DNA of 64,000 nucleotides from Candidatus Paceibacterota bacterium (lineage in GTDB: Bacteria > Actinomycetota > Actinomycetes > Nanopelagicales > Nanopelagicaceae), in assembly GCA_035530615.1 (NCBI GenBank), contig DATKUL010000002.1:806001-870000 (forward strand), written 5' to 3'. The notes below the pieces were generated by a model. That model saw only the letters and a program-made list of their open reading frames with translations, was not told where the DNA came from and did no database searches. Shown here piece after piece: positions 36,362 through 57,880 of this stretch; the first letter of the stretch is position 1, and the number at the start of each line of letters is the position of its first letter. Both the position numbers and the translations under genes were made by a program.

Positions 36362-36835
36362 TTACTTCTTTTTTGCAACTTTCTTTGCTGCTTTCTTAGG
36401 AGCAACTTTCTTAGCGACCTTCTTTGGGGCTGCTTTCTTAGCGACCTTCTTGGCTGCTTTCTTAGGAGCAACTTTCTTAGCGGCCTTCTTTGGGGCAGCC
36501 TTCACAACTGGCTTTGCCACAACTTTTGGAACTGGCTTTGGAGCTGGCTCAAGTTTGCGAGCACCCGAAATAACTTCTTTCAGACCCTTTGCCGGCAAGA
36601 AGCGTGGCTTCTTGCTTGCCTTGATCTGAATGGTCTCACCGGTAAATGGGTTACGACCCTTACGTGCCTTGCGGTCAACCTTCTTGAACTTGCCGAAGTC
36701 GTTGATCATTACGTCTTCGCCTTTTGCCAAGTTGCGAGTGATCGCGTCAAAAACGATATCAACAGCGTGTGCTGCTTCCTTCTTGCTGTCGTTGAAGTGT
36801 GGGGTCAACGAGGCAATGAATTGGGCCTTATTCAT
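36362..36835 (-). CDS. hupB: Histone-like HU protein with lysine-rich tail
   Basis: 157 residues. The N-terminal 90 form the HU fold (NKAQFIASLTPHF ... KGRNPFTGETIQIKASKKPRF). The tail (about 95-157) is made of PKKAAKKVA-type repeats like those of mycobacterial HupB and eukaryotic H1. It compacts DNA. An upstream in-frame ATG exists, but AGGGGAA six bases before ATG 36835 and the family N-terminus support this start. It is transcribed alone with a strong terminator. Confidence 0.95.
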   Translation of the reverse strand: MNKAQFIASLTPHFNDSKKEAAHAVDIVFDAITRNLAKGEDVMINDFGKFKKVDRKARKGRNPFTGETIQIKASKKPRFLPAKGLKEVISGARKLEPAPKPVPKVVAKPVVKAAPKKAAKKVAPKKAAKKVAKKAAPKKVAKKVAPKKAAKKVAKKK

Positions 36836-36850
36836 CAAATTCCCCTTATA

Positions 36851-36883
36851 TTTACGCGTAAATGTTAAGCAATTGCTTAACAT
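36851..36883. promoter_or_regulatory. Two adjacent palindromes upstream of HU
   Basis: TTTACGCGTAAA (36851-36862) is a perfect 12 bp palindrome. The next one (36862-36883) is a perfect 22 bp palindrome with half-site ATGTTAAGCAA. They share the A at 36862 and lie 15-50 bp before the HU start codon, a likely place for a dimeric regulator or for HU itself. Confidence 0.6.
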
Positions 36884-36962
36884 AGTTGGAAATTTACGCA
36901 CTATTTCAAAATGAGTCCACCATTAAAGACGCGTGTCGCACTTATTTATTTCTATGAGTTGC

Positions 36963-39138: not shown

Positions 39139-39864
39139 GTGGACAGAAAGAATAGCGGAGTTGGTGTATTAGATAAAGCCGTAGCAATTCTTACGACCTT
39201 GGAATCGGGACCCCATTCCCTGGCAGAACTTGTAGCAGCAACCGGAATCGCGCGTCCGACGGCACATCGCCTAGCAGTTGCACTTGAATTTCATCGCCTT
39301 GTCACGCGCGACTTAAGTGGTCGTTTTGTGCTCGGTCCCCGCTCTGGCGAACTTGCCGCCGCTGCCGGGGAAGATCGCCTCCTCGCTGCGGCCGCGCCTG
39401 CCCTTACCTCGCTTCGTGACGCAACTGGAGAAAGTGCCCAGTTGTACCGACGCCAAGGTGACCTGCGGATCTGCGTTGCAGTCGCCGAACGCGTATCTGG
39501 TCTGCGCGACTCAGTTCCAATTGGAGCCGCTTTAACAATGCAAGCGGGCTCTGCTGCGCAGGTGCTACTTGCATGGGAGGATTCGGATCGCATCCACCGT
39601 GGACTTACAAATGCACGATTTACCGCTGCACAATTGGCAGCGGTTCGCCGTCGCGGGTGGGCACAGAGCATGGGAGAACGCGAAGCTGGAGTGGCTTCCG
39701 TTTCTGCACCGGTGCGCGGTCCAAATGGAAAAGTTATTGCGGCTGTCAGTATCAGCGGTCCGATTGAACGCCTGGGAAGACAACCCGGTCGTCTGCATGC
39801 AGCAGTTGTTGCGGCTACTGCGGCAAGACTTTCCGAACATTTAGAAAATTCAAATAAGCCTTAA
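39139..39864 (+). CDS. ndgR: IclR-family regulator, NdgR/LtbR-like
   Basis: 241 residues. The winged helix lies at 10-65 ([24 protein letters not shown]) and the IclR effector domain at 80-240. Being divergent from leuCD matches NdgR of Streptomyces and LtbR of Corynebacterium, which repress leucine and tryptophan genes. No ribosome-binding site precedes the GTG start, in agreement with a leaderless mRNA. Its stop overlaps that of the convergent sensor kinase. Confidence 0.85.
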
Positions 39865-40943
39865 GGCATCGGCACCACCAAAGTAATTTTTGCACCTCGG
39901 CCTGGTTTACTTTCGATAATCAGCGACCCTTTCAACAATTTCGTTCGCTCGTCCATGCCGCGTAAACCCAACCCAGTCTCCGTTGGGGGACCAAGTGATG
40001 ACATTCCTTGTCCATTGTCAGCAATAGAAACCACCAGATTGCCACTACCAAAATTAATCTCCACGTTCACTTGAGTGGCTCTCGCGTGATGTTCAACATT
40101 ATGCAGCGCCTCTTGCACGACTCTGAAAATAGGAAGCTCGAGACGCTCATCTAGTCTTTGGCGAGGGCCATGCACACGAAGGTCGACAACTACACCAGAG
40201 CGACTTTGCAGATCCGCCACCAACCATTCGATAGCGTCGATGAGGCCAAGGTCATCTAGCAATGAGGGGCGTAGATCCCTACAGAAGCGCCGCACGCTCG
40301 ACATCGTGCTACTGAGAATCTCTTGTACCCGGAGCAACCGATTCTCTGCACCGACGAGATTCTCGCTTGAAGTGACCATTCCAATTTCAGTTATTGCGGT
40401 CGCTAGCGACTGCAAGGTGTCGTCGTGGAGTTCACGTGATAAACGCTTTCGCTCTCTCTCTTGAGCCTCCGTTGCCAGACCAATATAGATTTCTAGATTC
40501 TCTTTTGCTTTTAGAAGTCTCACATTTGCTTCTTGGGCTTGCCCTGCCGCGAGATTTTCTCGCTCCACGCGATTAGCCACGATCATGGCGATTACGCCAA
40601 TAATTCCGAACTGGATCACAATGCCTAGGCGAGTAGTGGATTGATGTGAAATTATCTCGGGGATCCACAAAAGCAGCGCCCAGGCGAAAGTTGGTCCCGC
40701 GCCCCTGCGTCCAAAATTAAGTGCAGCATAAACAACCGGAACAAGGAATGGCGAGACGGAGAGAATATATAACTCGGAATCAGTGACCAATAGAGCAGAT
40801 TTTTCCAGGAGTATGTGGCTGACATCTACTACTAAGACAAGGGCTTGAATGATCCAAAATCGATGGTCTTTGTATGGAATCCCCATCTTCCCAATCCAAT
40901 TTCTCATCCTTGTGACGAAAGAAGAAGTTTTCAATGAACTCAT
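39861..40943 (-). CDS. NarL-type membrane sensor histidine kinase
   Basis: 360 residues. The N-terminal region (about 25-125) has four or five membrane spans and no large outer domain. A coiled linker leads to the dimerisation/phosphoacceptor helix with His173 (LSRELHDDTLQSL) and an ATPase domain (N box EALHNVEHHA; G boxes DNGQGM and GLGLRGM). It phosphorylates the response regulator encoded immediately upstream, which it overlaps by one base. The signal is unknown; a membrane or redox cue is possible given the neighbours. Confidence 0.88.
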   Translation of the reverse strand: MSSLKTSSFVTRMRNWIGKMGIPYKDHRFWIIQALVLVVDVSHILLEKSALLVTDSELYILSVSPFLVPVVYAALNFGRRGAGPTFAWALLLWIPEIISHQSTTRLGIVIQFGIIGVIAMIVANRVERENLAAGQAQEANVRLLKAKENLEIYIGLATEAQERERKRLSRELHDDTLQSLATAITEIGMVTSSENLVGAENRLLRVQEILSSTMSSVRRFCRDLRPSLLDDLGLIDAIEWLVADLQSRSGVVVDLRVHGPRQRLDERLELPIFRVVQEALHNVEHHARATQVNVEINFGSGNLVVSIADNGQGMSSLGPPTETGLGLRGMDERTKLLKGSLIIESKPGRGAKITLVVPMP

Positions 40944-41617
40944 TACTTTTCTTTTTCGGTTAACTGGATCAAGTGGTGCAGCACAGCGTGTGTGACTGCT
41001 TCAGTTCGCGAAGAGACTCCCAGTTTTTCGAAAACATTGCGCATATGCGCTTCAACAGTCCGAATGCTCAAGAAGAGTTCTTTTGCGATGTTCTTATTTG
41101 TCAGGCCTCTTGCAGCAAGCTGTAGGACCTGCAATTCGCGATCACTCATCCCGTTAACGGAGTGTGAAGGCTCCGAAATCCGAGAAAGTACACTCCTGGC
41201 AACCGTGGCGGAGAGGGCAGATCCCCCATTAGAGACTTTAATAACCGCATCCCTCAATTCACTCTCTTCTACGGTCTTGAGTAGATAGCCGCTAGCCCCC
41301 GCTTGCAGGGCTGCATTGACATACTGATCGTCGTCATAGACCGAGAGAATAATGATCTCGATTTCGGGAAAATCATTACTAATCTTCTGTGTGGCCTCGA
41401 TACCGGTCATTCCGGGCATTGCGATATCCATCAAAATTACTTGAGGGCGCAATTTTGCTGCCATTTCGTATGCTTGAAAGCCATCGCTACCCTCACCCAC
41501 GACAGTTATCAGACCATCAACCGTCTTGAGTCGCTCGCAAATACCCGCACGAAAAATCGGATGGTCATCCACGACGAGGACTCGGATGCCCATTGTCCCC
41601 TCTTGCGTATCGCTCAT
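40943..41617 (-). CDS. NarL/FixJ-family response regulator
   Basis: 224 residues. The receiver domain has the acidic pair DD (residues 17-18) and phospho-acceptor Asp64 (ILMDIAMPGM), plus a Lys in YLLKTVE. A C-terminal LuxR helix-turn-helix (about 155-215) has LTNKNIAKELFLSIRTVEAHM. Either the ATG at 41617 or the ATG at 41593 could be the start; both have G-rich sequence upstream. It is probably the partner of the adjacent kinase and may control the respiratory genes on its right. Confidence 0.88.
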   Translation of the reverse strand: MSDTQEGTMGIRVLVVDDHPIFRAGICERLKTVDGLITVVGEGSDGFQAYEMAAKLRPQVILMDIAMPGMTGIEATQKISNDFPEIEIIILSVYDDDQYVNAALQAGASGYLLKTVEESELRDAVIKVSNGGSALSATVARSVLSRISEPSHSVNGMSDRELQVLQLAARGLTNKNIAKELFLSIRTVEAHMRNVFEKLGVSSRTEAVTHAVLHHLIQLTEKEK

Positions 41618-41862
41618 CGAGCCGATTCCCCTTAGCCATCTTCACTTCTAGAAATAGCACATTCCGAGTCAGTGACCCAAGCCAGTGATCTTGCCTAGCA
41701 ATTGATGCTACACCCGAGATATTAGCGCCATCGCTAACAAAATCAGTAGGTGTTATCGCCGAGTAGGTGCGAGCGAATTGCCGATGTGTCGCGGATACCC
41801 GCCCCTCAATACTTTGAGAGTGTGAAACCACAAATAGATCAACCAACTAGAAAGAGGAGATC
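41618..41862. other. Divergent intergenic region
   Basis: About 245 bp between the response regulator and the lipoprotein gene. It must contain promoters for both directions. AGAAAGAGGAG just before 41863 is the ribosome-binding site of the lipoprotein gene. I see no strong palindrome. Confidence 0.4.
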
Positions 41863-42873
41863 ATGTCTAAAACAATTGGCCGCGGGCGGAATGGCTATTC
41901 CAAGCGGGCCACCTTGAGTGCAGTAGCGCTAACCGCTGCAGCACTCCTCACGCTTACCGCCTGCGGAGGTGGAACCGAAGATGTCGCGTCGGACACTCCC
42001 ACCGATACCGCGATCACCTTAGTCGAAGCTCTTCCAGCCGGCCAATGGATTTCCAATAGCGGAGATTTTAAAGAGGCCGCGAATTGGGACGTAGCAGAGA
42101 CTGTAACAATTGACCTTGGCGATGGAGTCATCACACCTTCCAACCTTGAACTTGTTGCAGGCATGCCATATGTCATTGAAATTTCAAATTCAGACACCGT
42201 CGAACATGGCTTCTCGGCTCTGGACTTTATGCGCGCCTCAGCAGTCCGTAAAGTTGAATCCGCAAGCGCTGAAATCAAGGTAACTCTCTTTAAAGATATC
42301 TACGTACTACCTGGAAAAATGATGGAACTCTTTGTCGTTCCCGTCATGCCCGGAGTCACTGCAATGGAAGGTCTTACAGATGGCGTGGCGGTTTCCGGCA
42401 TGACTGGCACAATCTCAGTAACCGGAGATGTACCTACAACTCCAAAACCCGTCATTGATCCACTCAGTACGGTCGGAGAAGTAGCCGGTGCTGCGGGTCT
42501 GATTGAAGCTGCGAAAGCAACGTGGAGTACAGACGCAGCTGCGGTGACAGTTGAAATGATGGATAACGGTGATGCCCACTTCTTCAAGCCAAAAGTCATC
42601 GAATTGAAGCTCAATCAACCAGTCACTCTCACCTTCGCCAACAACGGAAATATCCTGCACGTTTTCGATACTCCAGATTTCCTAGACACATGCGCATTCT
42701 GGAAAATTGTTAACGCCGAAGGCACCGTCTTTGGTGGGAAGGCACGCCCCGCAGATCTCGAAGCTGGCGGTGCCTCGAATCTGTACATCATTCCTACCAA
42801 GGCTGGAACCTACACCTTGGGCGATGAAGCACCTGAGATGGCAAGCATGAAAGCAACAATCGTCGTTAAGTAG
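41863..42873 (+). CDS. Cupredoxin-like lipoprotein, two domains
   Basis: 336 residues. A lipoprotein signal with LTAC lipobox anchors it at Cys34 outside the membrane. Two cupredoxin-type beta domains follow, about 85-195 (PYVIEISNSDTVEHGFSALDF) and 220-336 (VTLTFANNGNILHVFDTPDF...CAFW). Each has a His where a copper ligand would be, but the usual C-x(2-4)-H-x(2-5)-M loop is missing in the first and unclear in the second, so copper binding is uncertain. It precedes genes for an iron-sulfur protein and NrfD-like protein and may act as their redox partner or stabilising subunit. Confidence 0.7.
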   Translation: MSKTIGRGRNGYSKRATLSAVALTAAALLTLTACGGGTEDVASDTPTDTAITLVEALPAGQWISNSGDFKEAANWDVAETVTIDLGDGVITPSNLELVAGMPYVIEISNSDTVEHGFSALDFMRASAVRKVESASAEIKVTLFKDIYVLPGKMMELFVVPVMPGVTAMEGLTDGVAVSGMTGTISVTGDVPTTPKPVIDPLSTVGEVAGAAGLIEAAKATWSTDAAAVTVEMMDNGDAHFFKPKVIELKLNQPVTLTFANNGNILHVFDTPDFLDTCAFWKIVNAEGTVFGGKARPADLEAGGASNLYIIPTKAGTYTLGDEAPEMASMKATIVVK

Positions 42874-42886
42874 TCACAGTAAGCCT

Positions 42887-42915
42887 CTTGAGGGGCAGCG
42901 AACCTGCCCCTCAAG
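42887..42915 (+). terminator. Strong hairpin between the lipoprotein and FeS genes
   Basis: CTTGAGGGGCAG and CTGCCCCTCAAG form a perfect 12-pair stem with a five-base loop, 14 bp past the stop. No U-run follows. It may protect or partly end the lipoprotein mRNA, giving more lipoprotein than the membrane subunits. Confidence 0.6.
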
Positions 42916-42976
42916 AACTTAACGATTTGTGCAGGAAATAAATTCATATTCCACAGCGAAAAGGGAGTTGAGCGAA

Positions 42977-43864
42977 GTGGCAAATCTAAGGAACGTTGTC
43001 GACAGATCAAAACGGACTCGTCCGTATCCAGATCTTGGACTTACACCAGCGGGGGTTGTGTCGACTGAAGCAGAAGACATGTCCCGCAGAAATATGCTCT
43101 TAGGTCTTGGGGCGGTTGGCGTTGCGTCAATGGGCAGCGCCCTTGGATTGATTGGATTCAAAGACGAAGCACATGCTGCAGGTACAGTTGCAAAAGGCGC
43201 CGAACATCAATGGTGCAGAATTGTCGACTTAAGAGCTTGCACCGGAGAACGTAAGTGTGTCTCGTCATGTCAAACCCGCCACGGTCTTCCCCCTGAGCAG
43301 ACATGGATGCGCGTACTCTCATGGCAGGACGAAGTCGGCAAGGAATTCTTCATGCCGGTGCCCTGTCAGTTGTGCGAGAACCCACCCTGTATCGCCGTTT
43401 GTCCAGTAAGCGCCACTACTCGGACCGCCGAAGGCATAACTCTTGTCGACCAAGATAAGTGCATTGGTTCGAGAGCCTGCATGGCCGCCTGCCCCTATGA
43501 GGCTCGGTACTTCAATTGGAACAAGCCAGCAGATACAAATCGGATGCCGGCACCTTCGCCATCCACTCCGGAATTTCCTGCCAACCAGATTGGCACCGTG
43601 GGCAAGTGTGTCCTATGTGCAGATCGCATCCCCTACTCCAACGAATTGCCTTCCTGCGTTGAAGCCTGCCCCAATCACGTGCACTACATCGGGGACTTCG
43701 TAACAGATGTTGCGGTAAACGGAGTGTCAACCGTAAAACTTTCGACGTTTTTAAGCGAGAACAATGCAGTTCGATTTAGGGAGGAATTGGGCACCAATCC
43801 GCGTACCTACTACATCCTCGGAAAGGGTCAACCTCTCGGCGGCCCAATGGCGGGTGTGAAATGA
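42977..43864 (+). CDS. Tat-exported four-cluster ferredoxin, NrfC/DmsB-like
   Basis: About 295 residues. A twin-arginine motif SRRNMLLG (37-44) and hydrophobic stretch target it to the outside in folded form. Four Cys groups follow: RACTGERKCVSSC, PCQLCENPPCIAVCP, KCIGSRACMAACP, and KCVLCAD with SCVEACP, enough for four [4Fe-4S] clusters. It would pass electrons between an NrfD-type quinol site and a periplasmic partner. The GTG at 42977 has AAGGGAG nine bases upstream; an earlier GTG at 42929 is less likely. It overlaps the next gene by four bases. Confidence 0.85.
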   Translation: MANLRNVVDRSKRTRPYPDLGLTPAGVVSTEAEDMSRRNMLLGLGAVGVASMGSALGLIGFKDEAHAAGTVAKGAEHQWCRIVDLRACTGERKCVSSCQTRHGLPPEQTWMRVLSWQDEVGKEFFMPVPCQLCENPPCIAVCPVSATTRTAEGITLVDQDKCIGSRACMAACPYEARYFNWNKPADTNRMPAPSPSTPEFPANQIGTVGKCVLCADRIPYSNELPSCVEACPNHVHYIGDFVTDVAVNGVSTVKLSTFLSENNAVRFREELGTNPRTYYILGKGQPLGGPMAGVK

Positions 43865-45765
43865 GAACAATGGAAAGTGCAGATCAATTGATGCAGCCAA
43901 GCGCGCAAGAGGCCTCTTTGCGGCCATTTAAGAAGGCCAGTATGAAGTTCTGGATTGCCATCGGCTTACTTAGCGCGGTGGTTGCGTTGGGAATTGTGGC
44001 GTGGATCGTGCAACTTCGTGAAGGTATGGGCGTAGCTGGATTTTCTAACCGTTCATTCTGGGCCATCGACCTCACCAACGTGGTGACAATCATCGGAGTA
44101 AGTTATGGAGGAGCAGTTATTTCAGCGATTCTATTGCTGACTGGCGCTTCGTGGCGGGCACCTCTTGCTCGCATTGCCGAAGGCATGGCCGTTGTCACGG
44201 TAATCATTGGTGCGGCTTTCGTATTTCCTCATCTTGGCCGACCAGATCGATTAATGTACATGATTCTGCAACCCAACTTTAGGTCGCCAGTATTTTGGGA
44301 CTTTGTTGCAATCACGACATACATGTTTGCTTCCTTTGTCTTCTTCTTTCTTCCACTTATCCCCGATATGGCAATTTTGCGGAACAAACATCCGGAAGAA
44401 CTTGGACGAGGAAGGCGCGCCCTCTACCGAATCTGCTCACAAGGCTGGATTTCGTCACCAAAACAACACCGCGTATTGCGCGGTGCGATTGGAGTCGTAG
44501 CAATCCTCATAATCCCATTGGCAGTATCAGTCCACTCAGTGCTTTCTTGGGCCTTCTCTTTAGTAAGTCGTCCCGGCTGGCACGAGAGCATCTGGGCCCC
44601 ATATTTTGTTATTGCCGCACTCTATTCAGGCGTTGCTCTGGTCGTTGTCATTACTGCGGGGTTCAGGCGTGGATATCACCTCGAGGAATTCATAACTGAG
44701 AGGCATTTTGTTCGCCTTGGTTTCCTCATGGCTGCATTGGGTGCGACCTATTTGTATCTCACCTTCGCGGACATTCTTCCCGGGGCCTATGTTGGCGAGC
44801 GAGGAGTCGCTGAAGTTGTCCATGACACTCTCGTTGGTGATTATGCAATTTCGTTCTGGACTTTTATATTTGCCGGCGCCATCCTGCCCATCCTCTTAGT
44901 CGCACTTCCTCAGACCAGAAACACGGCAGGTATGGTCGTCGCGGCAACATTGATTGTGATTGCTATGTGGCTCAAACGCTTAGTGATGGTCTCGGAAACA
45001 TCCCACTATGACCAACTCACCCGATCCTTTGGGCAGTATTACCAATTCACGTGGGTTTCCATTTCGATAACTTTGGCCGGAGTTGCAGCAATACCTTTAA
45101 TGCTCATGTTGCTCTTTCGAGTGGTTCCAATCCTTGCAATCGATGAAATCGACACGCTTGCAGCAGAAGATTCCACTTCCCCAGCCCCCACAACTACAAA
45201 ATCCCCAACGGGACGAGGAGTTGGCACGGTTGTTGGCATCTTCCTGCTCCTGATTGCGGCAGGAACAATTGGTGTTGGCAATGCAACGCCCGCGGCGGCA
45301 GACACATCTGTTCCCACCATTACAGTTACAGCAACTGCTTCGGGACCGAACATCGCACTCACAGCCACCGTGAAATATGGCGCGGATCCTGTCGTGGAAG
45401 CAGATCTAAAATTCTATGAAAGTACAACCATGTTTAAACCTGGTACCAATCTGGTCCCTATCGGAAGGACAGTCACGGATTTCAATGGGGCGGCAGAGGT
45501 GACCTATACCGCTGCGGTCAATGGTTTAAAAACAATCACGGTCATGTATTACTTTGACCCAGAGGCACCACCTGCAATTGGCACCACCCAAGTGAATGTG
45601 ACTGGTGCAGTCTCACCGTATGTAGAGCCAAAGGCACAACTTCTGGCCGGTGCCGGTCGTACTTTGGTGGGCGCTCTCTTCACTCTCGTCCTCCTCTCAT
45701 TCCTTATTGTGATCGCCCAAGTAGTGCGAGTACGTCGGACTATGCGAGAGAAAACACCGAGCTAA
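43861..45765 (+). CDS. NrfD/PsrC-like quinol subunit with C-terminal Ig-like domain
   Basis: 634 residues. About nine membrane spans in residues 30-430 match the NrfD/PsrC family that exchanges electrons between menaquinone and a bound iron-sulfur subunit (HLGRPDRLMYMILQPNFRSP near 125-145). After a further span (about 455-475) comes a ~110-residue outer domain of Ig-like character (VPTITVTATASGPNIALTATVKY ... GLKTITVMYYF), then a last span at 600-622. This C-terminal extension is not part of the usual family of 300-400 residues. Codon overlap with the FeS gene supports a complex. Confidence 0.8.
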   Translation: MRTMESADQLMQPSAQEASLRPFKKASMKFWIAIGLLSAVVALGIVAWIVQLREGMGVAGFSNRSFWAIDLTNVVTIIGVSYGGAVISAILLLTGASWRAPLARIAEGMAVVTVIIGAAFVFPHLGRPDRLMYMILQPNFRSPVFWDFVAITTYMFASFVFFFLPLIPDMAILRNKHPEELGRGRRALYRICSQGWISSPKQHRVLRGAIGVVAILIIPLAVSVHSVLSWAFSLVSRPGWHESIWAPYFVIAALYSGVALVVVITAGFRRGYHLEEFITERHFVRLGFLMAALGATYLYLTFADILPGAYVGERGVAEVVHDTLVGDYAISFWTFIFAGAILPILLVALPQTRNTAGMVVAATLIVIAMWLKRLVMVSETSHYDQLTRSFGQYYQFTWVSISITLAGVAAIPLMLMLLFRVVPILAIDEIDTLAAEDSTSPAPTTTKSPTGRGVGTVVGIFLLLIAAGTIGVGNATPAAADTSVPTITVTATASGPNIALTATVKYGADPVVEADLKFYESTTMFKPGTNLVPIGRTVTDFNGAAEVTYTAAVNGLKTITVMYYFDPEAPPAIGTTQVNVTGAVSPYVEPKAQLLAGAGRTLVGALFTLVLLSFLIVIAQVVRVRRTMREKTPS

Positions 45766-45778
45766 CGCTCTGGCATTT

Positions 45779-45844
45779 CCCCAAACCTAAGATGCTTAAT
45801 GCCGGCGACTCTCCTTGCTAGCATTAAGCATCTTAGGTTTGGGG
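45779..45844. promoter_or_regulatory. Perfect 24 bp stem-loop before the DevR-like gene
   Basis: Positions 45779-45802 and 45821-45844 are exact inverted copies (arm begins CCCCAAACCTAAGATG) around an 18-base loop. It starts 13 bp after the NrfD-like stop. The right arm runs into the GGGGGG that serves as ribosome-binding site for the ATG at 45853. There is no U-run, so translation control or mRNA protection is more likely than simple termination. Confidence 0.75.
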
Positions 45845-45852
45845 GGCACTTT

Positions 45853-46494
45853 ATGGCGATTAAAGTATTTGTCGTCGACGATCACGAACTCGTCCGGCGC
45901 GGACTGATTGACCTGATTAATGCCGAAGACGACCTCATCGTTGTGGGACAAGCGGGCACGGTCGCAAGTGCACTTAAAGAGATCAATAAGGAATTGCCCG
46001 ATGTTGCCGTTCTTGATGTTCGCCTCCCCGATGGAAATGGAATCGAACTCTGCCGCGAAATTCGATCCCTTTACCCGCAGGTTCGTGTACTGATGCTGAC
46101 TTCCTTCTCGGATGACGAAGCCCTGCTTGGTGCAGTCTTGGGAGGTGCCAGCGGCTTTGTTATTAAGGATATAAAGAATCTCGATCTGCTCGATGCAATT
46201 AGAAGGGTGGCAAGTGGCGAATCACTGATTGATACCTCCACAACTACCAAACTGCGCAGTCGTCTACGCGATGCGAGCAGTCCTGCCGGGGGAATCGATG
46301 ATCTCACCGACCAAGAACGTAGGGTTCTGGAATTCATCGGAGAAGGACTTACCAATCGTCAGATTGCAAACTCCATGTTCCTGGCGGAGAAAACCGTAAA
46401 GAATTACGTCTCCTCATTACTCTCAAAATTGGGATTAGAACGTCGCACGCAAGCAGCTGGACTCGCTGTCCGGCTTGGACTTGGCAGACCCTAG
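45853..46494 (+). CDS. devR: DevR/DosR-like response regulator
   Basis: 213 residues. The receiver domain has DDHELVRRGL, Asp55 (VAVLDVRLPDGNGIELCRE) and FVIKDIK; the LuxR-type DNA-binding domain has LTNRQIANSMFLAEKTVKNYVSSLLSKLGLERRTQAA, nearly the DosR recognition helix. DosR controls hypoxia and nitric-oxide responses in mycobacteria. The ATG at 45853 follows a G-run; an in-frame ATG at 45799 lies inside the stem-loop. It converges with its probable sensor, sharing the CTAG stop overlap. Confidence 0.85.
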   Translation: MAIKVFVVDDHELVRRGLIDLINAEDDLIVVGQAGTVASALKEINKELPDVAVLDVRLPDGNGIELCREIRSLYPQVRVLMLTSFSDDEALLGAVLGGASGFVIKDIKNLDLLDAIRRVASGESLIDTSTTTKLRSRLRDASSPAGGIDDLTDQERRVLEFIGEGLTNRQIANSMFLAEKTVKNYVSSLLSKLGLERRTQAAGLAVRLGLGRP

Positions 46495-47615
46495 AGTTTT
46501 CCAGTCCAAATAGCCCGGGTTCCACCACTTGGCCGTTTGTAAATTTCAAAAGTTCCATCAAAGTCCTCGGCGCGTTTGGCCAGATTAAGCAGACCGCTTC
46601 GATGCACGTTATCCGCAATTCCAATGCCGTCGTCAATGATTCGGACTTCGCATCTAGTCTTGAGAGCGCTGATCTGCACCTCAACGAGATGAGCCTTCGA
46701 GTGTTTTATAGCATTAGTGAGGAGTTCGCGTAAAACAGCAAATAGGTTCTCAGCCAGTTCACCATCAATGACCGTATCAATTGGGCCGTTGAATTCGCAC
46801 GTCAAATTCATAGCGGAACTAATCCGAAGTGAATCTATCTCGGTCTGAATACGTGAACGGAGTCCGTGAGGACCATTCTGATCTTGAAGTGCAAAGACTG
46901 AATTGCGGATCTGCTGGACCGTCGCATCTAAATTATCGATTACTTCACGAAGGCGTGCGAGGTCTTTTTCGGAACACTCTGGATCCTTTGTGAGGGCCTG
47001 CAGTGAAAGGCCCGTCGCAAAAAGCCGTTGAATAACTAAGTCGTGCAGGTCGCGGGCGATACGTTCGCGCTCGGCCAGAACTATGACACGGTGCTGCGCC
47101 TCAAGCCCGCGTGCATTATCGATGGCTACTCCAGCAGCTGACGCTAAAGCACTGACCAACTGCTCATCCTCTTCGGTGAAGTCCTCTCCCCCGCGCTTCT
47201 CTGTGAGGTAAAGGCTTCCATAAATCTCATCACGGATTCGGATAGGGACACCAAGGAAAGAAATCATCGAGGGGTGACCAACCGGAAATCCACTTGAGGC
47301 GGGATGGGATCGAATCGGATTTACTCGCAGTGGCACAGGGTGAGTGAGCAAATGTCCGAGCAACCCCTTTCCTTCCGGGAAAGTAGCGATTTCATCTGCG
47401 GTCTCTTCGCTCATTCCGACATACGTGAACTCTTCCAGGCTTCCATCCGCACCCAAGGCTCCCAAAGCACCGTAGGTTGCACCCGAGAGTGCAACTGCGT
47501 TTTCAACCAAGCGGCGAAGTGATGCCTTGAGATCTTCTCCCTTGGCAATATCAATAACTGCCTCGGAGAGAGCTCCCAATCGGTTCGACCCCATGTCGGA
47601 AGTCTGCCCAATCAT
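46491..47615 (-). CDS. devS: DevS/DosT-like GAF sensor histidine kinase
   Basis: 374 residues. One GAF domain (about 15-168) precedes the dimerisation helix with His191 (RIARDLHDLVIQRLFATGLSLQ) and an ATPase domain (LLTNAIKHSKA, DDGIGI). This corresponds to a DosS with one GAF. Whether the GAF holds heme cannot be decided here. It is soluble, with no membrane span. It likely senses oxygen, NO or redox and activates the DevR-like regulator encoded convergently. Confidence 0.82.
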   Translation of the reverse strand: MIGQTSDMGSNRLGALSEAVIDIAKGEDLKASLRRLVENAVALSGATYGALGALGADGSLEEFTYVGMSEETADEIATFPEGKGLLGHLLTHPVPLRVNPIRSHPASSGFPVGHPSMISFLGVPIRIRDEIYGSLYLTEKRGGEDFTEEDEQLVSALASAAGVAIDNARGLEAQHRVIVLAERERIARDLHDLVIQRLFATGLSLQALTKDPECSEKDLARLREVIDNLDATVQQIRNSVFALQDQNGPHGLRSRIQTEIDSLRISSAMNLTCEFNGPIDTVIDGELAENLFAVLRELLTNAIKHSKAHLVEVQISALKTRCEVRIIDDGIGIADNVHRSGLLNLAKRAEDFDGTFEIYKRPSGGTRAIWTGKL

Positions 47616-47630
47616 GGCATCAATAGCGAA

Positions 47631-48968
47631 CTAGCAGGGCTTTTCCGCACCGCGACGTGCATAATGGAACCAGGCCATGGCGGCAGCATTTAAGGCAAAT
47701 ATGCCGATGCCCCAGAATAGAATCGTTGGCGCCATAATTGCGAGAAGCACACCAAAGAAGAACGGACCGAAGGCTGCAATCGCACTGACCCATCCGATCA
47801 CTCCACCTGCTTGGCGAGGCTCAAAGATCATCGGCATCTGCTTGAAGGTGCTTGCGTTGCCGACTCCAGCAAAGAAGAAGATTGCCAGCATTCCCCAGAA
47901 GAAGAGATTGAAATCGGCACTACTCGTGGGTGAAACATGCATGGCGGTAAAGATCGCAGATGCACCGATTCCGACGCCCGAAAGAACCGTCAGTTTTCCA
48001 CCGCCAACACGATCCGACACTGGACCGCTGAGTACTCGAGCGGCCGATCCGACGAGTGGACCGAAGAATGCGTACTTCACGGGATCGGGAGCGTTTGCAA
48101 AGGAGCCATAAAGCGAATTGATGAGTAGGCCGAATTGTGCGGCAAGCCCGGAAAAAGTTCCAAATGTCAGCATGTAAAGGCTGGTCATGAGCCACGTGTG
48201 CTTGTTGCTAAATATGTCTAGCTGGTCTTTCACTCCACGGGCTTTTACTGGAACACTCTTGAGCATTGTCCAGGCAAGAATAACTGCGATCACGACAAAT
48301 GGAATCCAGAGCAATCCTGCATTTTGATACCAGGTCGACTTATCAATCCCCTTTGCTGCGTCAACGAAATGTTGAGGAGCGCCAAGTGTCGAACCTAACA
48401 TCGCCGAACCGACGATAATAGGAGTCACAAACTGAACCAGACTCACTCCGAAGTTTCCGATGCCCGCCTGTACTCCCAAGGCCATTCCCTGTTTAGATTT
48501 TGGGAAAAAATATGAGGTACTTGGCATGAATCCAGAGAAGACGCCGCCCCCGAGGCCAGCTAGGAAGGCGAGAGCCAGCAACCCAACATAAGGTGTTGAA
48601 GGAGTTCGCACTGCAAAGGACCAGCCAAGTAAAGGAAGTATGAGAAGTCCAGTCGAATAAGTAACTAACCGACGTGTGCCGAAAATTGGGGGCAGGAACA
48701 TCCAGAGAAGTCGAAGGCCGCCACCGGCAAGTCCGGGCATTGCTGCCAGCCAGTAAAGCTCGCCCTTACTTAGGTCGAAGCCGATGCTATTAAGCTTTGG
48801 TGCAAGGGCAGAGACAAGAAACCAACTTATAAATCCAAGGGTGAGTGCATAGGTGGTGATCCATAAAGTTCTCCACGCGATCTTGGAATCCCAGGTAGCC
48901 TCATTATTTGGATCCCAGTTTTCTAGCCATTCACTTCCGCTTTTCGCTTGCGCTGCTTTACTGGCCAT
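47631..48968 (-). CDS. narK: Nitrate/nitrite MFS transporter, NarK type (second)
   Basis: About 445 residues with twelve spans. Signatures are AFLAGLGGGVFSGFMPSTSYFFPKSKQGMALGVQAGIGNFGVS (nitrate-signature region) and VSAIAAFGPFFFGVLLA. The N-terminus has a soluble stretch of about 35 residues (SEWLENWDPNNEATW). It moves nitrate or nitrite across the membrane. The ATG at 48968 follows the upstream narK stop by one base (TGACATG), which implies coupled translation; a TTG at 48980 is less likely. Confidence 0.88.
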   Translation of the reverse strand: MASKAAQAKSGSEWLENWDPNNEATWDSKIAWRTLWITTYALTLGFISWFLVSALAPKLNSIGFDLSKGELYWLAAMPGLAGGGLRLLWMFLPPIFGTRRLVTYSTGLLILPLLGWSFAVRTPSTPYVGLLALAFLAGLGGGVFSGFMPSTSYFFPKSKQGMALGVQAGIGNFGVSLVQFVTPIIVGSAMLGSTLGAPQHFVDAAKGIDKSTWYQNAGLLWIPFVVIAVILAWTMLKSVPVKARGVKDQLDIFSNKHTWLMTSLYMLTFGTFSGLAAQFGLLINSLYGSFANAPDPVKYAFFGPLVGSAARVLSGPVSDRVGGGKLTVLSGVGIGASAIFTAMHVSPTSSADFNLFFWGMLAIFFFAGVGNASTFKQMPMIFEPRQAGGVIGWVSAIAAFGPFFFGVLLAIMAPTILFWGIGIFALNAAAMAWFHYARRGAEKPC

Positions 48969-48969
48969 G

Positions 48970-50289
48970 TCAGATTCCAACTTTCTCTAGAGTCACTGTA
49001 TCAATTCGGCGTTCCAATTGCGGTGTTGCGCGGTTCATCATTCGGACAATCGTCAAATGCATCCACACGCTTGCCGACAGCGTGAGCAGAAAGAGCACAA
49101 TGAACGTGGACTGGGGAAGCCCAGTCCACTCACGGACAGAAACGAAGAGTGGGGGAAGTATGAAGCCACCGAGTGCGCCGAGAGTTCCAACGAGGCCCCC
49201 AACTGCTCCAACGTCTTTGGGGAAGTACTCCGGAATGTGCTTATAAACTGCCGCTTTCCCAATACCCATCGAGCAACCGACAATAAATAGCAGTACAGTG
49301 AATGGCACGACTCCAAGGGAATAGGGAAGAATATTTTTCAGGCCATCTTGCGTCTGCAGGACTATGTGCCCGAAGGGCGCGGCAAGTAGTAAGAGCGCAA
49401 TCAACATCGTCCCAAAAGATGCATACATGAGTCTGCGCGCACCCATTTTATCTGAGAGATGCCCGCCAAAGGGACGAAGAAGCGAGGCGGGAAATATAAA
49501 GAGCGCGGTAAGTAACGCTGCATCGTGCAGATTCAAATCGTAAACGGAAACATAGTACTTGGGCATCCACGATGCCAAGGCGACATAGGCACCGAAAACA
49601 ACGACGTAGTACAAACTAAATCTCCACACCTGCACATGCTTTAAGGGTGTGAACATATCCTTCAGTGGTCGTGATACTTGTACCCGCACAGAGTCTGCGG
49701 GTGTCATAAAAACAATAGCTATAGCGGTAATGACGAGAAGAATTGAATAGAGGGCGGGAACAAAGCGCCATCCTCCAGGAATCACTCCCCCTAAATACGA
49801 AACTCCTACAGTGCTCGCGATGAGAGGTGGACCGATAAATTTAGTGGCAGACGCACCGACGTTGCCGGCTCCGAAGACACCGAGGGCAAAGCCCTGCCGA
49901 TCGCGTTCAAACCAGTGAGCATTCCAAGCGATCCCGACGCTAAATAGATTTCCAGCGAATCCGACCAAGAACGCCAGGATCAGAAGCCACGTGTAATCCA
50001 GTTTCATGTGTGCCAATAGGTATGCCGGAACCGCAGTCACAAGGAGCATCACGACAGTTACTCGTTTGCCGCCGATCCGATCTGTTAAGACTCCCAGAAA
50101 AAGTCGCCAGATCGAGCCATTAAGAATTGCCACTGATGATAGCCAGGCCAGTTGAGAATCGCTGAGTCCGAACTCCTTCTGGATGGGGATTCCTAGTACG
50201 CCAAACATCAGCCAGACCGCAAACATTAAAGTAAACGCAAAGGTGGATAGCGAAAGTACTCTCGTCGATCCCTTTATTCCTTGAGACAT
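48970..50289 (-). CDS. narK: Nitrate/nitrite MFS transporter, NarK type (first)
   Basis: About 439 residues with twelve spans. It carries FGVLGIPIQKEFGLSDSQLAWL at the start, a first NS motif (FLVGFAGNLFSVGIAWNAHWF) and a second one (VGTLGALGGFILPPLFV). It is divergent from narG and co-transcribed with the next narK. AAGGAGGA precedes ATG 50289 at good distance; the frame is open to 50343. The two tandem genes differ in sequence, so proton-coupled nitrate uptake and nitrate/nitrite exchange may be split between them. Confidence 0.88.
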   Translation of the reverse strand: MSQGIKGSTRVLSLSTFAFTLMFAVWLMFGVLGIPIQKEFGLSDSQLAWLSSVAILNGSIWRLFLGVLTDRIGGKRVTVVMLLVTAVPAYLLAHMKLDYTWLLILAFLVGFAGNLFSVGIAWNAHWFERDRQGFALGVFGAGNVGASATKFIGPPLIASTVGVSYLGGVIPGGWRFVPALYSILLVITAIAIVFMTPADSVRVQVSRPLKDMFTPLKHVQVWRFSLYYVVVFGAYVALASWMPKYYVSVYDLNLHDAALLTALFIFPASLLRPFGGHLSDKMGARRLMYASFGTMLIALLLLAAPFGHIVLQTQDGLKNILPYSLGVVPFTVLLFIVGCSMGIGKAAVYKHIPEYFPKDVGAVGGLVGTLGALGGFILPPLFVSVREWTGLPQSTFIVLFLLTLSASVWMHLTIVRMMNRATPQLERRIDTVTLEKVGI

Positions 50290-50344
50290 CCGTCCTCCTT
50301 CTGGTCCCCTAAGGCGAAGACTGCCCCGTGCAACGGGCGGCAAG

Positions 50345-50361
50345 TAGGGTCTTTGTACCTA
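50345..50361. promoter_or_regulatory. DosR-box-like palindrome between narK and narG
   Basis: TAGGGTCTTTGTACCTA is an imperfect palindrome lying 36 bp before the narG start. It matches part of the DosR box GGGACTTNNGNCCCT (about 9 of 12 defined positions counted loosely). TTTAAT just downstream could be the -10 of narG. Confidence 0.4.
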
Positions 50362-50396
50362 TTTAATTCGAATGAGTGCAGGGTCACAATAGGGGC

Positions 50397-53300
50397 ATGA
50401 CGAAACCGGCTGCCCCGCGAACAGACCCAGAAGACGCCCTCATCAAGCTCGGAAGATTCTTTTCTAAGGGAGAGGTTTCAAAAGATCTTCGTAGCATTAC
50501 TAAGAGTGGGGGTCGCGCAGGGGACGCTTTCTACCGCGATCGTTGGAGCCATGACAAGGTCGTTCGATCTACGCACGGCGTTAACTGCACTGGTTCGTGT
50601 TCGTGGAAGGTCTATGTAAAAGACGGAATTATCACCTGGGAAACACAGCAGACTGACTACCCATCCGTTGGCCCCGATTCTCCAGAGTATGAGCCACGCG
50701 GATGTCCACGGGGTGCGGCATTTTCCTGGTACACATATTCGCCAACACGTATTCGCTTTCCCTATATCCGAGGAGTACTTCTTGAAATGTACCGTGAAGC
50801 AAAATCACGACTTCATGATCCAGTACTTGCATGGGCCGATGTTGTCGATAATCCAGAGCACAGAATTCGTTATCACCAAGCTCGTGGAAAAGGCGGATTA
50901 GTGCGAGCAAATTGGGGAGAGATTTCGGAGATTATTGCCGCAGCACACGTGCACACAATCAAGAAGTATGGGCCGGACCGCGTATTCGGCTTCTCGCCGA
51001 TTCCCGCCATGTCTATGGCATCGCATGCCGCAGGTGCACGTTTCATTTCACTCCTGGGTGGCGCAATGCTCTCCTTCTATGATTGGTATGCAGATCTGCC
51101 AGTCGCATCGCCGCAAGTGTTTGGTGATCAGACAGATGTTCCCGAATCAGCAGACTGGTTCAATGCTTCCTACCTCATGATGTGGGGATCGAATGTCCCT
51201 GTGACACGTACTCCAGATGCGCACTTCATGACCGAAGGTCGATACCGCGGTCAGAAAGTTATTGCCATCAGTCCTGATTATGCGGATAACACCAAGTTTG
51301 CGGATGAATGGGTTGCGCCTCATCCAGGCACTGACGGCGCACTCGGAATGGCGATGGGCCATGTCATTCTTAAGGAATTCTTCGTCGACAAACAGATCCC
51401 GCGCTTCCAGGATTATGTGAAGAAGTACACAGACCTGCCCTATCTCGTAACCCTGCGCGAGAAGGACGGTGCATACGTTCCAGATAAGTTCCTGGTTGCC
51501 GCAGACTTAGGTGATACATCCGAAGGTTCGAAATTCAAAACGGTCATGCTTGATTCCAATGGAAAGACTTTCGTTCCCAATGGATCACTGGGTCATCGCT
51601 ACAACGACTCTTCTATGGGCAAATGGAACTTGGATCTCGAAGGTATCGATCCATCACTTTCTCTCTTCGGCACTTCGCAAGCAAGTGCAGTAGAAGTTCT
51701 GATGCCTCGTTTTGATTTGGGACAAGAAACTTCCGAAAGTGGCGGAGTACTTCGCCGCGGTGTCCCTTGCATTGAGATTGGCGATAGGAAAGTCACGACG
51801 GTTTATGACTTGATGCTCGCGCAATATGGAGTCTCTCGTGAGGGGCTTGCTGGCGAATGGCCCAGTGATTACGAAGACACCACTCCATACACACCTGCCT
51901 GGCAAGAGGAAATCACCAGCGTTCCTGCAGTGCAAGCAATTCGTATCGCGCGTGAATTTGCACAGAACGCAGTTGATTCGCAAGGGCGCTCCATGATTCT
52001 CCTCGGGGCCGGAACAAATCACTGGTTCCATTCGGACACGATGTATCGCACCTTTTTAGCACTTGTCACCCTCACGGGTTGCCAAGGTGTCAACGGCGGG
52101 GGCTGGGCCCACTACGTGGGACAAGAGAAGTGCCGTCCTGTCACAGGCTGGGCACAACTAGCATTCGGCGCAGATTGGTCACGTCCGGCGCGACAGATGA
52201 TTGGTACCGCTTTCTGGTACGTCTCCACCGATCAGTGGCGCTATGACGCACTCGGGTCAGAATTATTGGCAACTCCCCTAGGCGAAGGTCGCTTCAAAGA
52301 TATGAGTGCGATTGACGTCCTTGCGCAATCTGCTCGCATGGGGTGGATGCCTTCGTATCCATCACTCAATCGAAATTCCCTTGATCTGGTTGATGAAGCA
52401 CGCGCAAAGGGAGTCGACCCGGCAGTTCACGTTGTCGATCAACTCAAGTCCGGCGATCTTAAATTCGCCATTGAAAATCCAGATGCACCCGAAAATTGGC
52501 CGCGCGTTCTCACGGTCTGGCGAGCAAACATCCTTGGTTCTTCCAGTAAAGGTAATGAGTACTTCCTCAAGCACTTACTCGGTACAAGCAACTCGGTACG
52601 TGCCACTGAGAACAAAGCCGAGGAGCGACCACGTGATGTCGAGTGGGTGAAGGATGCGCCGGAAGGAAAACTAGATCTCCTCGTCTCTATCGATTTTCGT
52701 ATGACGAGTACCGGACTCTTTGGAGATATTTTACTTCCAGCCGCGACCTGGTATGAGAAGCATGATCTTTCGAGTACCGATATGCACCCCTTCATTCACG
52801 CGTTTACTCCCGCCATCAATCCTCCGTGGGAGACTAAAACGGATTATGAAATCTTCCAGATGCTCGGCCGCCAGGTGGCCGAACAGGCCAAGGGTCATCT
52901 GGGCGAGAGAGAAGACCTCGTCGTTGTACCGCTCATCCACGACACACCTGATGCCATGGCAAATCCCGGTGGAGTTGTACTTGACTGGCACAAAGGAGAG
53001 GTTGAGCCCATCCCGGGTGTCACAATGCCCAAGCTCGTCGTAGTCAAACGCGACTACACACTCATCGGTGAAAAGATGGGCGCGCTCGGACCGCTGATCG
53101 ACCAACTCGGTACAAATACCAAAGGAGTTCCGGTCACAGTTCTGCAAGAAGTCGAACTTCTTGGTCGGACCAATGGAGTCATTTCTCACGGAGTTGCCGC
53201 CGGTCGACCATCTCTTGCGCGAGATGTCGACGCATGTGAAGCGATTTTGGCACTCTCCGGAACAACAAATGGGCGCGTAGCAGTTGCCGGATTCCGGGCG

Positions 53301-54077
53301 CTAGAGAAGCGAACAGGACAGAAACTCACCGATCTTGCTCTCGATAATGAGGGCAAACGCATTACCTTTGCTGATACCCAAGCCAGACCAGTCCCGGTAA
53401 TCACCAGCCCAGAGTGGTCTGGATCAGAGCATGGCGGTCGTCGATACACCGCATTTGCTATTAACGTTGAGCGATTGAAACCTTGGCATACCTTGACTGG
53501 GCGACAGCATTTCTTTGTCGATCACGATTGGATGACCGAACTCGGTGAGCAATTCCCTGTCTTCCGACCGCCTCTCAATATGCACCGAATATTCGGCAAT
53601 CAGGCCGATGGTGTCGAGAAAGAAGTGACCGTCAGATATCTCACTCCCCATTCCAAATGGTCCATCCACTCGGAGTACCAAGACAACCTCTTCATGCTCT
53701 CGCTCTCGAGAGGAGGGCAAGAGATCTGGATGAGTGTGGAAGATGCCGAGACAATCGGAGTGAAAGATAACGAATGGATCGAGGCATACAACCGAAACGG
53801 TGTCGTCGTTGCACGAGCCTGCGTCTCTCATCGAATGCCGGCGGGAACAGTCTTTATGTATCACGCAAAAGATCGCGTCGTTGATGTTCCTCTTGCTGAA
53901 ACATCAGGTAAGCGCGGTGGTATTCACAACTCACTCACGCGATTGATGTTGAAACCAACTCACCTCATCGGTGGATATGCGCAGTTGACCTTTGCTTTCA
54001 ATTATCTCGGACCTACCGGAAATCAACGCGACGAAGTCACCGTGATCCGTCGCCGATCCCAGGATGTGGAGTACTAA
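50397..54077 (+). CDS. narG: Respiratory nitrate reductase alpha subunit
   Basis: About 1226 residues, full length. The FS0 cluster motif H60-x3-C64-x3-C68 with C103 is present, as is the Asp ligand to molybdenum in LSFYDWYADLP, followed by the QTDVPESADWFNASYLMMWGSN-type region. It reduces nitrate to nitrite on the cytoplasmic side with a bis-MGD cofactor. ATG 50397 has AGGGG upstream. First gene of narGHJI, whose genes all overlap. No molybdopterin genes are in this window. Confidence 0.97.
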   Translation: MTKPAAPRTDPEDALIKLGRFFSKGEVSKDLRSITKSGGRAGDAFYRDRWSHDKVVRSTHGVNCTGSCSWKVYVKDGIITWETQQTDYPSVGPDSPEYEPRGCPRGAAFSWYTYSPTRIRFPYIRGVLLEMYREAKSRLHDPVLAWADVVDNPEHRIRYHQARGKGGLVRANWGEISEIIAAAHVHTIKKYGPDRVFGFSPIPAMSMASHAAGARFISLLGGAMLSFYDWYADLPVASPQVFGDQTDVPESADWFNASYLMMWGSNVPVTRTPDAHFMTEGRYRGQKVIAISPDYADNTKFADEWVAPHPGTDGALGMAMGHVILKEFFVDKQIPRFQDYVKKYTDLPYLVTLREKDGAYVPDKFLVAADLGDTSEGSKFKTVMLDSNGKTFVPNGSLGHRYNDSSMGKWNLDLEGIDPSLSLFGTSQASAVEVLMPRFDLGQETSESGGVLRRGVPCIEIGDRKVTTVYDLMLAQYGVSREGLAGEWPSDYEDTTPYTPAWQEEITSVPAVQAIRIAREFAQNAVDSQGRSMILLGAGTNHWFHSDTMYRTFLALVTLTGCQGVNGGGWAHYVGQEKCRPVTGWAQLAFGADWSRPARQMIGTAFWYVSTDQWRYDALGSELLATPLGEGRFKDMSAIDVLAQSARMGWMPSYPSLNRNSLDLVDEARAKGVDPAVHVVDQLKSGDLKFAIENPDAPENWPRVLTVWRANILGSSSKGNEYFLKHLLGTSNSVRATENKAEERPRDVEWVKDAPEGKLDLLVSIDFRMTSTGLFGDILLPAATWYEKHDLSSTDMHPFIHAFTPAINPPWETKTDYEIFQMLGRQVAEQAKGHLGEREDLVVVPLIHDTPDAMANPGGVVLDWHKGEVEPIPGVTMPKLVVVKRDYTLIGEKMGALGPLIDQLGTNTKGVPVTVLQEVELLGRTNGVISHGVAAGRPSLARDVDACEAILALSGTTNGRVAVAGFRALEKRTGQKLTDLALDNEGKRITFADTQARPVPVITSPEWSGSEHGGRRYTAFAINVERLKPWHTLTGRQHFFVDHDWMTELGEQFPVFRPPLNMHRIFGNQADGVEKEVTVRYLTPHSKWSIHSEYQDNLFMLSLSRGGQEIWMSVEDAETIGVKDNEWIEAYNRNGVVVARACVSHRMPAGTVFMYHAKDRVVDVPLAETSGKRGGIHNSLTRLMLKPTHLIGGYAQLTFAFNYLGPTGNQRDEVTVIRRRSQDVEY

Positions 54078-55636: not shown

Positions 55637-56280
55637 GTACTGCCAATGTTCAGATGATCGCATCAGCCCTGCTCATTTATCCTGATGAGAATTTCCAAGA
55701 AAGACGTACCGAACTTGCCAATATCTCAAAAGATATTAAAGGTCGGGCCGGCGAATCCCTCCTGAAATTCTTCGATGCAACTAGCGAGATGACTTTGGAC
55801 GAAATTCAAAGACACTACGTTGAGATTTTCGATATGAGACGGCGATGCTCGCTCTTCCTTACATCATGGACACATGGTGACACTCGGAATAGAGGCATGG
55901 CTCTTCTCCATTTCAAGGAGATTTACAGAGAGGTCGGAGTCACAATGACGGATGAGGAACTCCCGGATCATCTTGCCGTGGTTCTAGAATTCGCGGCCCT
56001 GATGGACCACGAGGAAGGCAATCTCCTGCTTGGTGAGCACCGTGCCCCCATCGAATTGATTCGCGATGCGCTCCATAATGCCAACTCTTTCTACGCATCC
56101 ATCCTTGATGCGGTGGTAGCCACATTGCCGGCCATGACACCTGAAATTGAAGCTCGCGCACGCGCTCTGGCTCTCAGCGGCCCACCCCAGGAATTCGTGG
56201 GACTCAGTGGCGCCGTCTCGATTGCGCTAGAACCTTTTTCGTCGAACCCAGCCCTAGTAACCGATGGAGTGCGCACATGA
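55633..56280 (+). CDS. narJ: Nitrate reductase assembly chaperone
   Basis: 215 residues, all-helical TorD/NarJ family. It has YVEIFDMRRRCSLFLTSWTHGDTRNRGMALL, the conserved NarJ core. It holds NarGH during cofactor insertion and is not part of the final enzyme. It starts with GTG in a GTGA overlap with narH and ends in an ATGA overlap with narI. Confidence 0.95.
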   Translation: MSTANVQMIASALLIYPDENFQERRTELANISKDIKGRAGESLLKFFDATSEMTLDEIQRHYVEIFDMRRRCSLFLTSWTHGDTRNRGMALLHFKEIYREVGVTMTDEELPDHLAVVLEFAALMDHEEGNLLLGEHRAPIELIRDALHNANSFYASILDAVVATLPAMTPEIEARARALALSGPPQEFVGLSGAVSIALEPFSSNPALVTDGVRT

Positions 56281-57017: not shown

Positions 57018-57031
57018 CTTTCCTAAGTTAG
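57014..57031. terminator. Short hairpin between narI and the DinB-like gene
   Basis: CTAACTT and AAGTTAG form a perfect seven-pair stem with a TCCT loop. It includes both stop codons of two convergent genes. There is no U-run in either direction, so termination is only suggested. Confidence 0.45.
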
Positions 57032-57529: not shown

Positions 57530-57880
57530 CTATTTCTTCAGTTCGGTATCACAGGCAGCACGAAGATCTGCTAACGGCAAATCGATTGTAGATCGCACTA
57601 TCGAACTGCTCACCCGAAAGTACTCGTGCGCCAAAATATCGCGCATACCAGCAATTTCGCTCCAAGGGATTGTCGGATAAGCCTCCTTTATACGTTCATC
57701 AAAAGTCTTAACCACTTCTCCGATGACAACCAGATCGTAGAGAATGGCGTCAAAAGCCGTCTTTGCAACATCCCAGTCTTGGTTGCCTTCAGCTTCGACT
57801 AGCATTTTTTCGGCATGTTCAATTCTGGAAATACGATCCAAGATATCTTTTAACCGCGTAGATTTATCCCTTGCGCTCAT
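57530..57880 (-). CDS. hepT: HepT-like HEPN toxin
   Basis: 116 residues. The helical HEPN fold ends with the RNase motif RDILAHEY (R-x4-H-x-Y) near residues 80-87. In known HepT/MntA pairs the Tyr of this motif is AMPylated by the antitoxin. It overlaps the upstream antitoxin gene by four bases (ATGA). The C-terminus is short. Confidence 0.85.
   Translation of the reverse strand: MSARDKSTRLKDILDRISRIEHAEKMLVEAEGNQDWDVAKTAFDAILYDLVVIGEVVKTFDERIKEAYPTIPWSEIAGMRDILAHEYFRVSSSIVRSTIDLPLADLRAACDTELKK

Follow-up and report, generated by a model that had tools for sequence, protein, structure and literature searches.

The stretch of DNA considered here, referred to as the window, comprises 64,000 nucleotides of contig DATKUL010000002.1 (positions 806,001 to 870,000, forward strand) and derives from a 2.16-Mb actinobacterial genome whose closest relatives are Nanopelagicales-type genomes from groundwater and freshwater. 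Within it lies a cassette of five genes, HK1-RR1-CUP-FES-NRFD, which encode a two-component pair, a cupredoxin-like lipoprotein, an exported ferredoxin and an NrfD-type membrane protein carrying an immunoglobulin (Ig)-like domain, the last two apparently related to subunits of alternative complex III (ACIII). The features of the cassette are as follows.

39841..45853, no strand assigned: the HK1-RR1-CUP-FES-NRFD cassette, present or absent as one unit (same-genus flank alignments).
39861..40943, minus strand: HK1, a membrane sensor histidine kinase (HisKA_3 and HATPase_c; Pfam, kinase alignment).
40943..41617, minus strand: RR1, a LuxR/NarL-type response regulator, partner of HK1 (Pfam; position beside FES-NRFD in relatives).
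41863..42873, plus strand: CUP, a two-cupredoxin lipoprotein of 336 amino acids with lipobox Cys34 (alignment with the L048 homologue; fold resembling NirK and two-domain laccases).
42929..43864, plus strand: FES, a four-motif ferredoxin of 311 amino acids exported by twin-arginine translocation (Tat; SRRNM motif), with 14 of 16 cluster Cys.
43247..43249, plus strand: Glu107 of FES, replacing the second Cys of motif I (C-T-G-E-R-K-C; alignment of relatives).
43469..43471, plus strand: Ser181 of FES, replacing the second Cys of motif III (C-I-G-S-R-A-C); Thr stands at the equivalent ActB position, at the membrane-proximal [3Fe-4S] cluster.
43861-45765, plus strand: NRFD, 634 amino acids.
43861..45180, plus strand: NrfD/ActC-like membrane core of NRFD, residues 1-440 (phmmer to 6f0k_C, E 3e-51; quinol residues mapped).
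45223..45276, plus strand: extra span, residues about 455-472 (helix in the model; a former signal peptide by alignment to separate Ig proteins).
45316..45600, plus strand: Ig-like domain, residues 486-580 (seven strands; predicted local distance difference test (pLDDT) mostly 70-86; outside the membrane by positive-inside reasoning).
45646..45750, plus strand: final membrane span, residues 596-630, with a basic cytoplasmic tail (alignment and model).

An initial annotation of this DNA had described CUP, FES and NRFD as a three-gene redox module. The coordinates and the Pfam domains (Cupredoxin_1 in two stretches, 4Fe-4S dicluster domains and NrfD) agree with this description, and FES and NRFD overlap by 4 bp. 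The unit as first drawn was incomplete, HK1 and RR1 (39861-41617, minus strand) having been overlooked; both flank alignments and neighbourhood place this pair within it. In six genomes of the same genus (L084-L088 and L092) in which nar is present and the module absent, both flanks align with a gap running from ~39,840 to 45,852-45,859. The alignment with L002, which has the module, is interrupted from ~45,734 to 57,030, hence this genome is without nar at the site, and L089-L091 have neither. From these alignments the five genes constitute a single cassette of ~6 kb, distinct from the nar block that adjoins it. Few genomes of the genus have this cassette (2 of 21). The stretch from 39841 to 57013, between an IclR-type regulator and DinB/gltX, is a hot spot at which members of the genus carry nar or the cassette alone, the two together, or none of these genes.

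Twelve other genomes encode the full-length NrfD-Ig fusion and form, together with the window locus, a clade of 13 members. FES-NRFD adjoins HK1-RR1 in all 12 of these relatives (the L002 contig stops inside RR1), while CUP is found in only some of them; genes around the relatives' loci were called with scripts of our own, and many of these loci lie on short contigs of metagenome-assembled genomes. Comparison of the window with L002, a pair for which synonymous sites are near saturation in most genes, gave ratios of non-synonymous to synonymous substitution (dN/dS) indicative of purifying selection: 0.17 for CUP, 0.08 for FES, 0.05 for the NrfD core and 0.19 for the Ig domain. At such values (about 0.05-0.19) these genes are not decaying, and the selection on CUP, FES and NRFD, together with the 12 further genomes, argues that the gene trio is not a chance arrangement.

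NRFD is the only NrfD protein in the genome. Among solved structures its sole matches are ActC chains of ACIII (E 1e-44 to 3e-51), a result with which a fold search agrees, and on this basis NRFD is placed closest to ActC. The quinol site of ActC in Rhodothermus marinus ACIII comprises W82, H139, D169 and D253 (PMC5928083). The first three correspond to W67, H124 and D147 of NRFD, which are invariant in 14 sequences, and ActC Arg395 is kept as R373. FES in turn can be aligned to the iron-sulfur half of ActB, its motif III sequence CIGS then standing opposite CIGT. ActB holds one [3Fe-4S] cluster, which is separated from the quinol pocket by about 10-12 A and has a potential of +140 mV in R. 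marinus (PMC5928083). The membrane-proximal cluster of FES is therefore most likely also of the [3Fe-4S] type, to judge from this alignment. One cluster Cys is missing from each of motifs I and III in 13/13 clade members, while all 16 are present in FES of L039, L041, L042 and L057, and L081 lacks only that of motif III. FES had initially been read as a four-cluster Tat ferredoxin: Tat export and the four motifs hold, four complete clusters do not, and neither the loss of cluster Cys nor the kinship with ACIII had been recognised.

The comparison with known systems is closest for ACIII (ActABCDEF; PDB 6f0k, 6btm, 6lod, 8k9e), which shares the NrfD core and its quinol residues (ActC), and a C-terminal Fe-S half of ActB in which the same motif III Cys is altered. 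Unlike ACIII, the module has beside it no multiheme heme wire (ActA) and no cytochrome ActE, QcrC being the only protein found with PF13442; it lacks the cofactor-free Mo-like domain of ActB, FES being a separate Tat protein with Fe-S motifs only; it has no ActD, ActE or ActF, the second NrfD-like subunit ActF being ruled out by the single NrfD in the genome; it is without Asp253 of ActC, and FES has lost a second cluster ligand. To the shared parts it adds an Ig subunit, a lipoprotein and a two-component system. NrfD relatives from other phyla, borne on plasmids, sit in operons encoding ACIII and cytochrome oxidase. The best NCBIfam matches for FES and NrfD are DsrO and DsrP of DsrMKJOP, whose two genes stand in the same order, but the scores lie far below the curated cut-offs (161.5 vs 200 for DsrO, 75 vs 350 for DsrP) and no adjoining DsrM, DsrK or DsrJ is encoded in the window. 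The membrane modules of QrcABCD and PsrABC/NrfABCD share the NrfC/NrfD-type architecture, but the present module is without a catalytic or multiheme subunit and scores far under the equivalog cut-offs (for NrfC, 97.6 vs 377.6).

The Ig-like domain had been noted at the outset as an addition to NrfD. In the model this region forms a sandwich of seven strands. Relatives match the Big_1/Big_3 profiles weakly but consistently, with E 5e-6 for the fused protein of L057 and values down to 1e-8 for separate homologues, as against E 0.7 for the window domain. Six distant actinobacterial relatives (L039, L041, L043, L046, L047 and L048) encode, directly 3' of nrfD, a separate protein made up of a signal peptide, an Ig-like domain and a C-terminal membrane span; its gene shares 4 bp with nrfD in L041 and L048. 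The Ig domain is fused to NrfD in 15 proteins (L057, L081 and the 13-member clade). Because a separate exported form follows nrfD in these six relatives and is fused in the 15 proteins, the Ig domain is a genuine subunit that was once separate. All close homologues retain it. The alignments also indicate that the old signal peptide of the Ig protein became an internal span in the fusions, so that where one added final span had been reported there are two (~455-472 and 596-630). In the tree L041, L040, L039, L057 and L081 are successive outgroups of the clade, the weakest fork being that of L081.

The lipoprotein partner is exchangeable. CUP resembles two-domain cupredoxins (CopI-like, NirK/small laccase fold) in fold and domain arrangement, but, in contrast to these, neither of its domains possesses the ligand set of type 1 Cu, and a type 2 His cluster is absent too. 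Gly170/Val175 and Asp321/Met326 stand where the Cys and second His of type 1 Cu would be expected, and these two ligands are absent from both domains in 6/6 clade copies, while the L048 homologue has a complete His-Cys-His-Met set in each; the incomplete ligands already suspected are thus confirmed and extend to the clade. CUP was also considered as a NirK-like enzyme, which its fold resembles, yet a single invariant His lies outside the signal part. In a nested subclade of seven (L004, L005, L007, L008, L010, L011 and L012; support 100/99) CUP is absent and an unrelated lipoprotein of 141 amino acids takes its place; L011, one of the seven, is Kineosporia sp. A_224, named as a strain rather than as a metagenome-assembled genome. 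Exactly one of the two is present at each of the 13 loci, the absence of CUP at fragmentary loci being based on whole-genome searches in which some genomes are incomplete. The 141-amino-acid protein, found here only beside the module, has no conserved Cys or His except that of the lipobox, and belongs to no known family, with no database relative and no PDB relative worth naming. Distant relatives have redox partners: a cytochrome c and an intact two-site cupredoxin in L048, intact cupredoxins in L042, L055 and L081, and an EB_dh cytochrome in L046. In two of them (L043:5164-6288 and L047:10889-12067) the Ig protein carries a fused cytochrome c domain of planctomycete type (PSCyt1) from which CxxCH has been lost; the L048 homologue of this cytochrome-type protein keeps the heme motif CASCH and is a real cytochrome c. 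At L040:11620-14219 and L057:7253-8008, several copies of a cupredoxin-like protein lie beside NrfD; they belong to a divergent family marked by a C-x3-C motif (CYAPCG, CLTPCG).

FES/NrfD pairs commonly serve a molybdenum or multiheme enzyme, and the view that this one lacks a catalytic subunit is supported, nothing found across the genome being able to serve as one. Among the Mo enzymes matching PF00384, NarG has NarHJI as its partners, and a protein of 1009 amino acids, considered as an orphan Mo enzyme, is a soluble NAD-linked formate dehydrogenase accompanied by NuoE/F-like proteins; the remaining one is NuoG. Apart from NarGHI, none of these calls for a membrane partner. No Mo enzyme of the sulfite-oxidase fold (PF00174) was found in the genome. 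The diheme QcrC was the only c-type cytochrome found by PF13442 across the genome, and no NrfA-like gene lies among those around the module, although no search aimed at NrfA (PF02335) was made. The suggestion of an action on nitrite or NO, or of electron hand-over to NirK, finds no support: 0/35 genomes have a NirK above the TIGR02376 cut-off, on which ground this acceptor was rejected (large NirK-like proteins occur in three module genomes only), and the COX1-family matches of the genome, two oxidases and one weak fragment, include no NO reductase.

These data support the earlier description of the module as quinol-linked and facing outwards. The refuting conditions named with that description did not overturn it, the Ig domain being kept in every close homologue, although the lipoprotein is replaced at 7 of the 13 loci. 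Our preferred reading, for which the odds are about even, is that the cassette specifies a minimal ACIII/DsrOP-type quinol dehydrogenase whose electron exit has been remodelled or lost and which is governed by a two-component system of its own. Quinol would bind in the outer half of NrfD beside the membrane-proximal cluster of FES, and electrons would pass into FES and exit at the outer face, while FES or its acceptor may be docked by the lipoprotein and by the Ig subunit that forms part of NRFD. The ancestral acceptor was probably a blue-copper protein or cytochrome c from the same operon. In the clade the lipoprotein has lost its copper and FES one ligand of a cluster, so that the role of the lipoprotein may now be structural or in docking, and electrons, if still exported, would go to an acceptor encoded elsewhere; QcrC, the cytochrome in the bcc-aa3 chain, is the best candidate in this genome. 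The operon would be induced through HK1/RR1 according to the state of the membrane or the quinone pool. Several points weigh against this proposal. The conserved Asp253 of ActC is Ala231 in NRFD, invariantly in the clade, which suggests that proton handling may differ from that of ActC. Neither CUP nor the 141-amino-acid lipoprotein has a recognisable redox site, leaving the electron exit unaccounted for, and no acceptor co-occurs across all genomes. The structure predicted for the NrfD part is of low quality (mean pLDDT 51.7), and outside the Ig part it is too poor for docking FES.

The losses could also mean that FES-NrfD no longer exports electrons and instead signals to HK1 the state of the quinone pool, or the presence of an oxidant outside the cell, lipoprotein and Ig domain serving as coupling parts. 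The two-component pair stands beside the module in every close relative and in several distant ones; the membrane domain of HK1 is conserved with two conserved His (H43 and H100), while the GAF domain present in most relatives is missing in the window and L003; partner copper is lost and motif I altered throughout the clade, and the heme motif is lost in L043/L047. Against such a sensor, FES preserves motifs II and IV and the greater part of motifs I and III under the strong selection noted above, distant relatives have intact electron carriers, and a neighbouring two-component system usually merely regulates adjacent genes, so that we consider it rather unlikely. Much the same modest weight is given to a related view, in which a new actinobacterial quinol complex (FES-NrfD-Ig, an exchangeable lipoprotein and a dedicated kinase) would be an electron-export machine in the course of conversion into a quinone-pool sensor, its partners losing copper or heme and yet being kept or swapped for a non-redox lipoprotein. 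Electrons might instead flow inwards, the quinone pool being supplied by a metal, sulfur or organic donor in the periplasm. NrfD/NrfC modules work in both directions, QrcABCD reducing menaquinone, and DoxD-like genes lie beside the module in L039 and L040, the latter also with several cupredoxins; but the nearest solved relatives oxidise quinol, the potential of a [3Fe-4S]-type proximal cluster fits quinol oxidation and no donor enzyme is encoded nearby, making this direction distinctly improbable.

That FES and NRFD are the Fe-S and membrane subunits of a known complex, with a Mo enzyme, NirK or NrfA encoded elsewhere, would accord with the usual role of such pairs and with the Mo enzyme adjoining FES-NrfD in the distant relative L058. 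Every Mo enzyme of the genome has other partners, however, and neither the NirK nor the cytochrome results supply a candidate, NrfA having been looked for among the genes around the module only, so this is very unlikely. Hardly any weight falls on the idea that the module feeds quinol-derived electrons to the nitrate/nitrite metabolism of the adjoining nar cluster. It can draw on adjacency in the window and, like the preceding explanation, on the presence of narG in 10/13 module genomes, against at least 7/22 others, a count in which kinship is ignored. NarGHI itself oxidises quinol, three module genomes have no NarG-type match, and module and nar assort independently, near relatives having nar without the module and L002 the module without nar at the site. 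The flank alignments exclude nar from the unit, and the link to narGHJI, for which a test of co-expression had been suggested, is thus positional only.

In the open-access literature nothing relevant was found on NrfD with cupredoxin, plastocyanin, Ig-like or two-component partners, nor any description of a complex of FES-NrfD with an Ig subunit and a two-component pair; an Ig-like subunit of an ACIII-type module likewise appears undescribed in the literature searched. The cassette suggests that an ACIII-type quinol module also exists without a heme wire and under two-component control of its own, and that an NrfD/Fe-S pair need not belong to a molybdenum or multiheme enzyme, as is commonly assumed. 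The tree holds an ordered series leading from a separate Ig gene to its fusion, then to loss of cluster Cys, a copper-less partner and finally replacement of that partner, which makes it testable whether a respiratory NrfD module goes on exporting electrons once the cofactor of its carrier is gone.

The nar block has a second kinase/regulator pair (45799-47615) as well as two adjoining NarK-type transporters on the minus strand (47631-50343), divergent from narGHJI. The protein encoded at 57877-58389, beside two tRNA genes, combines an HTH_XRE-like N-terminal part with a nucleotidyltransferase-like C-terminal part and so resembles MNT-type modules. The one encoded at 36362-36901 is HU-like and has a long tail, rich in Lys and Ala, similar to that of histone H1.

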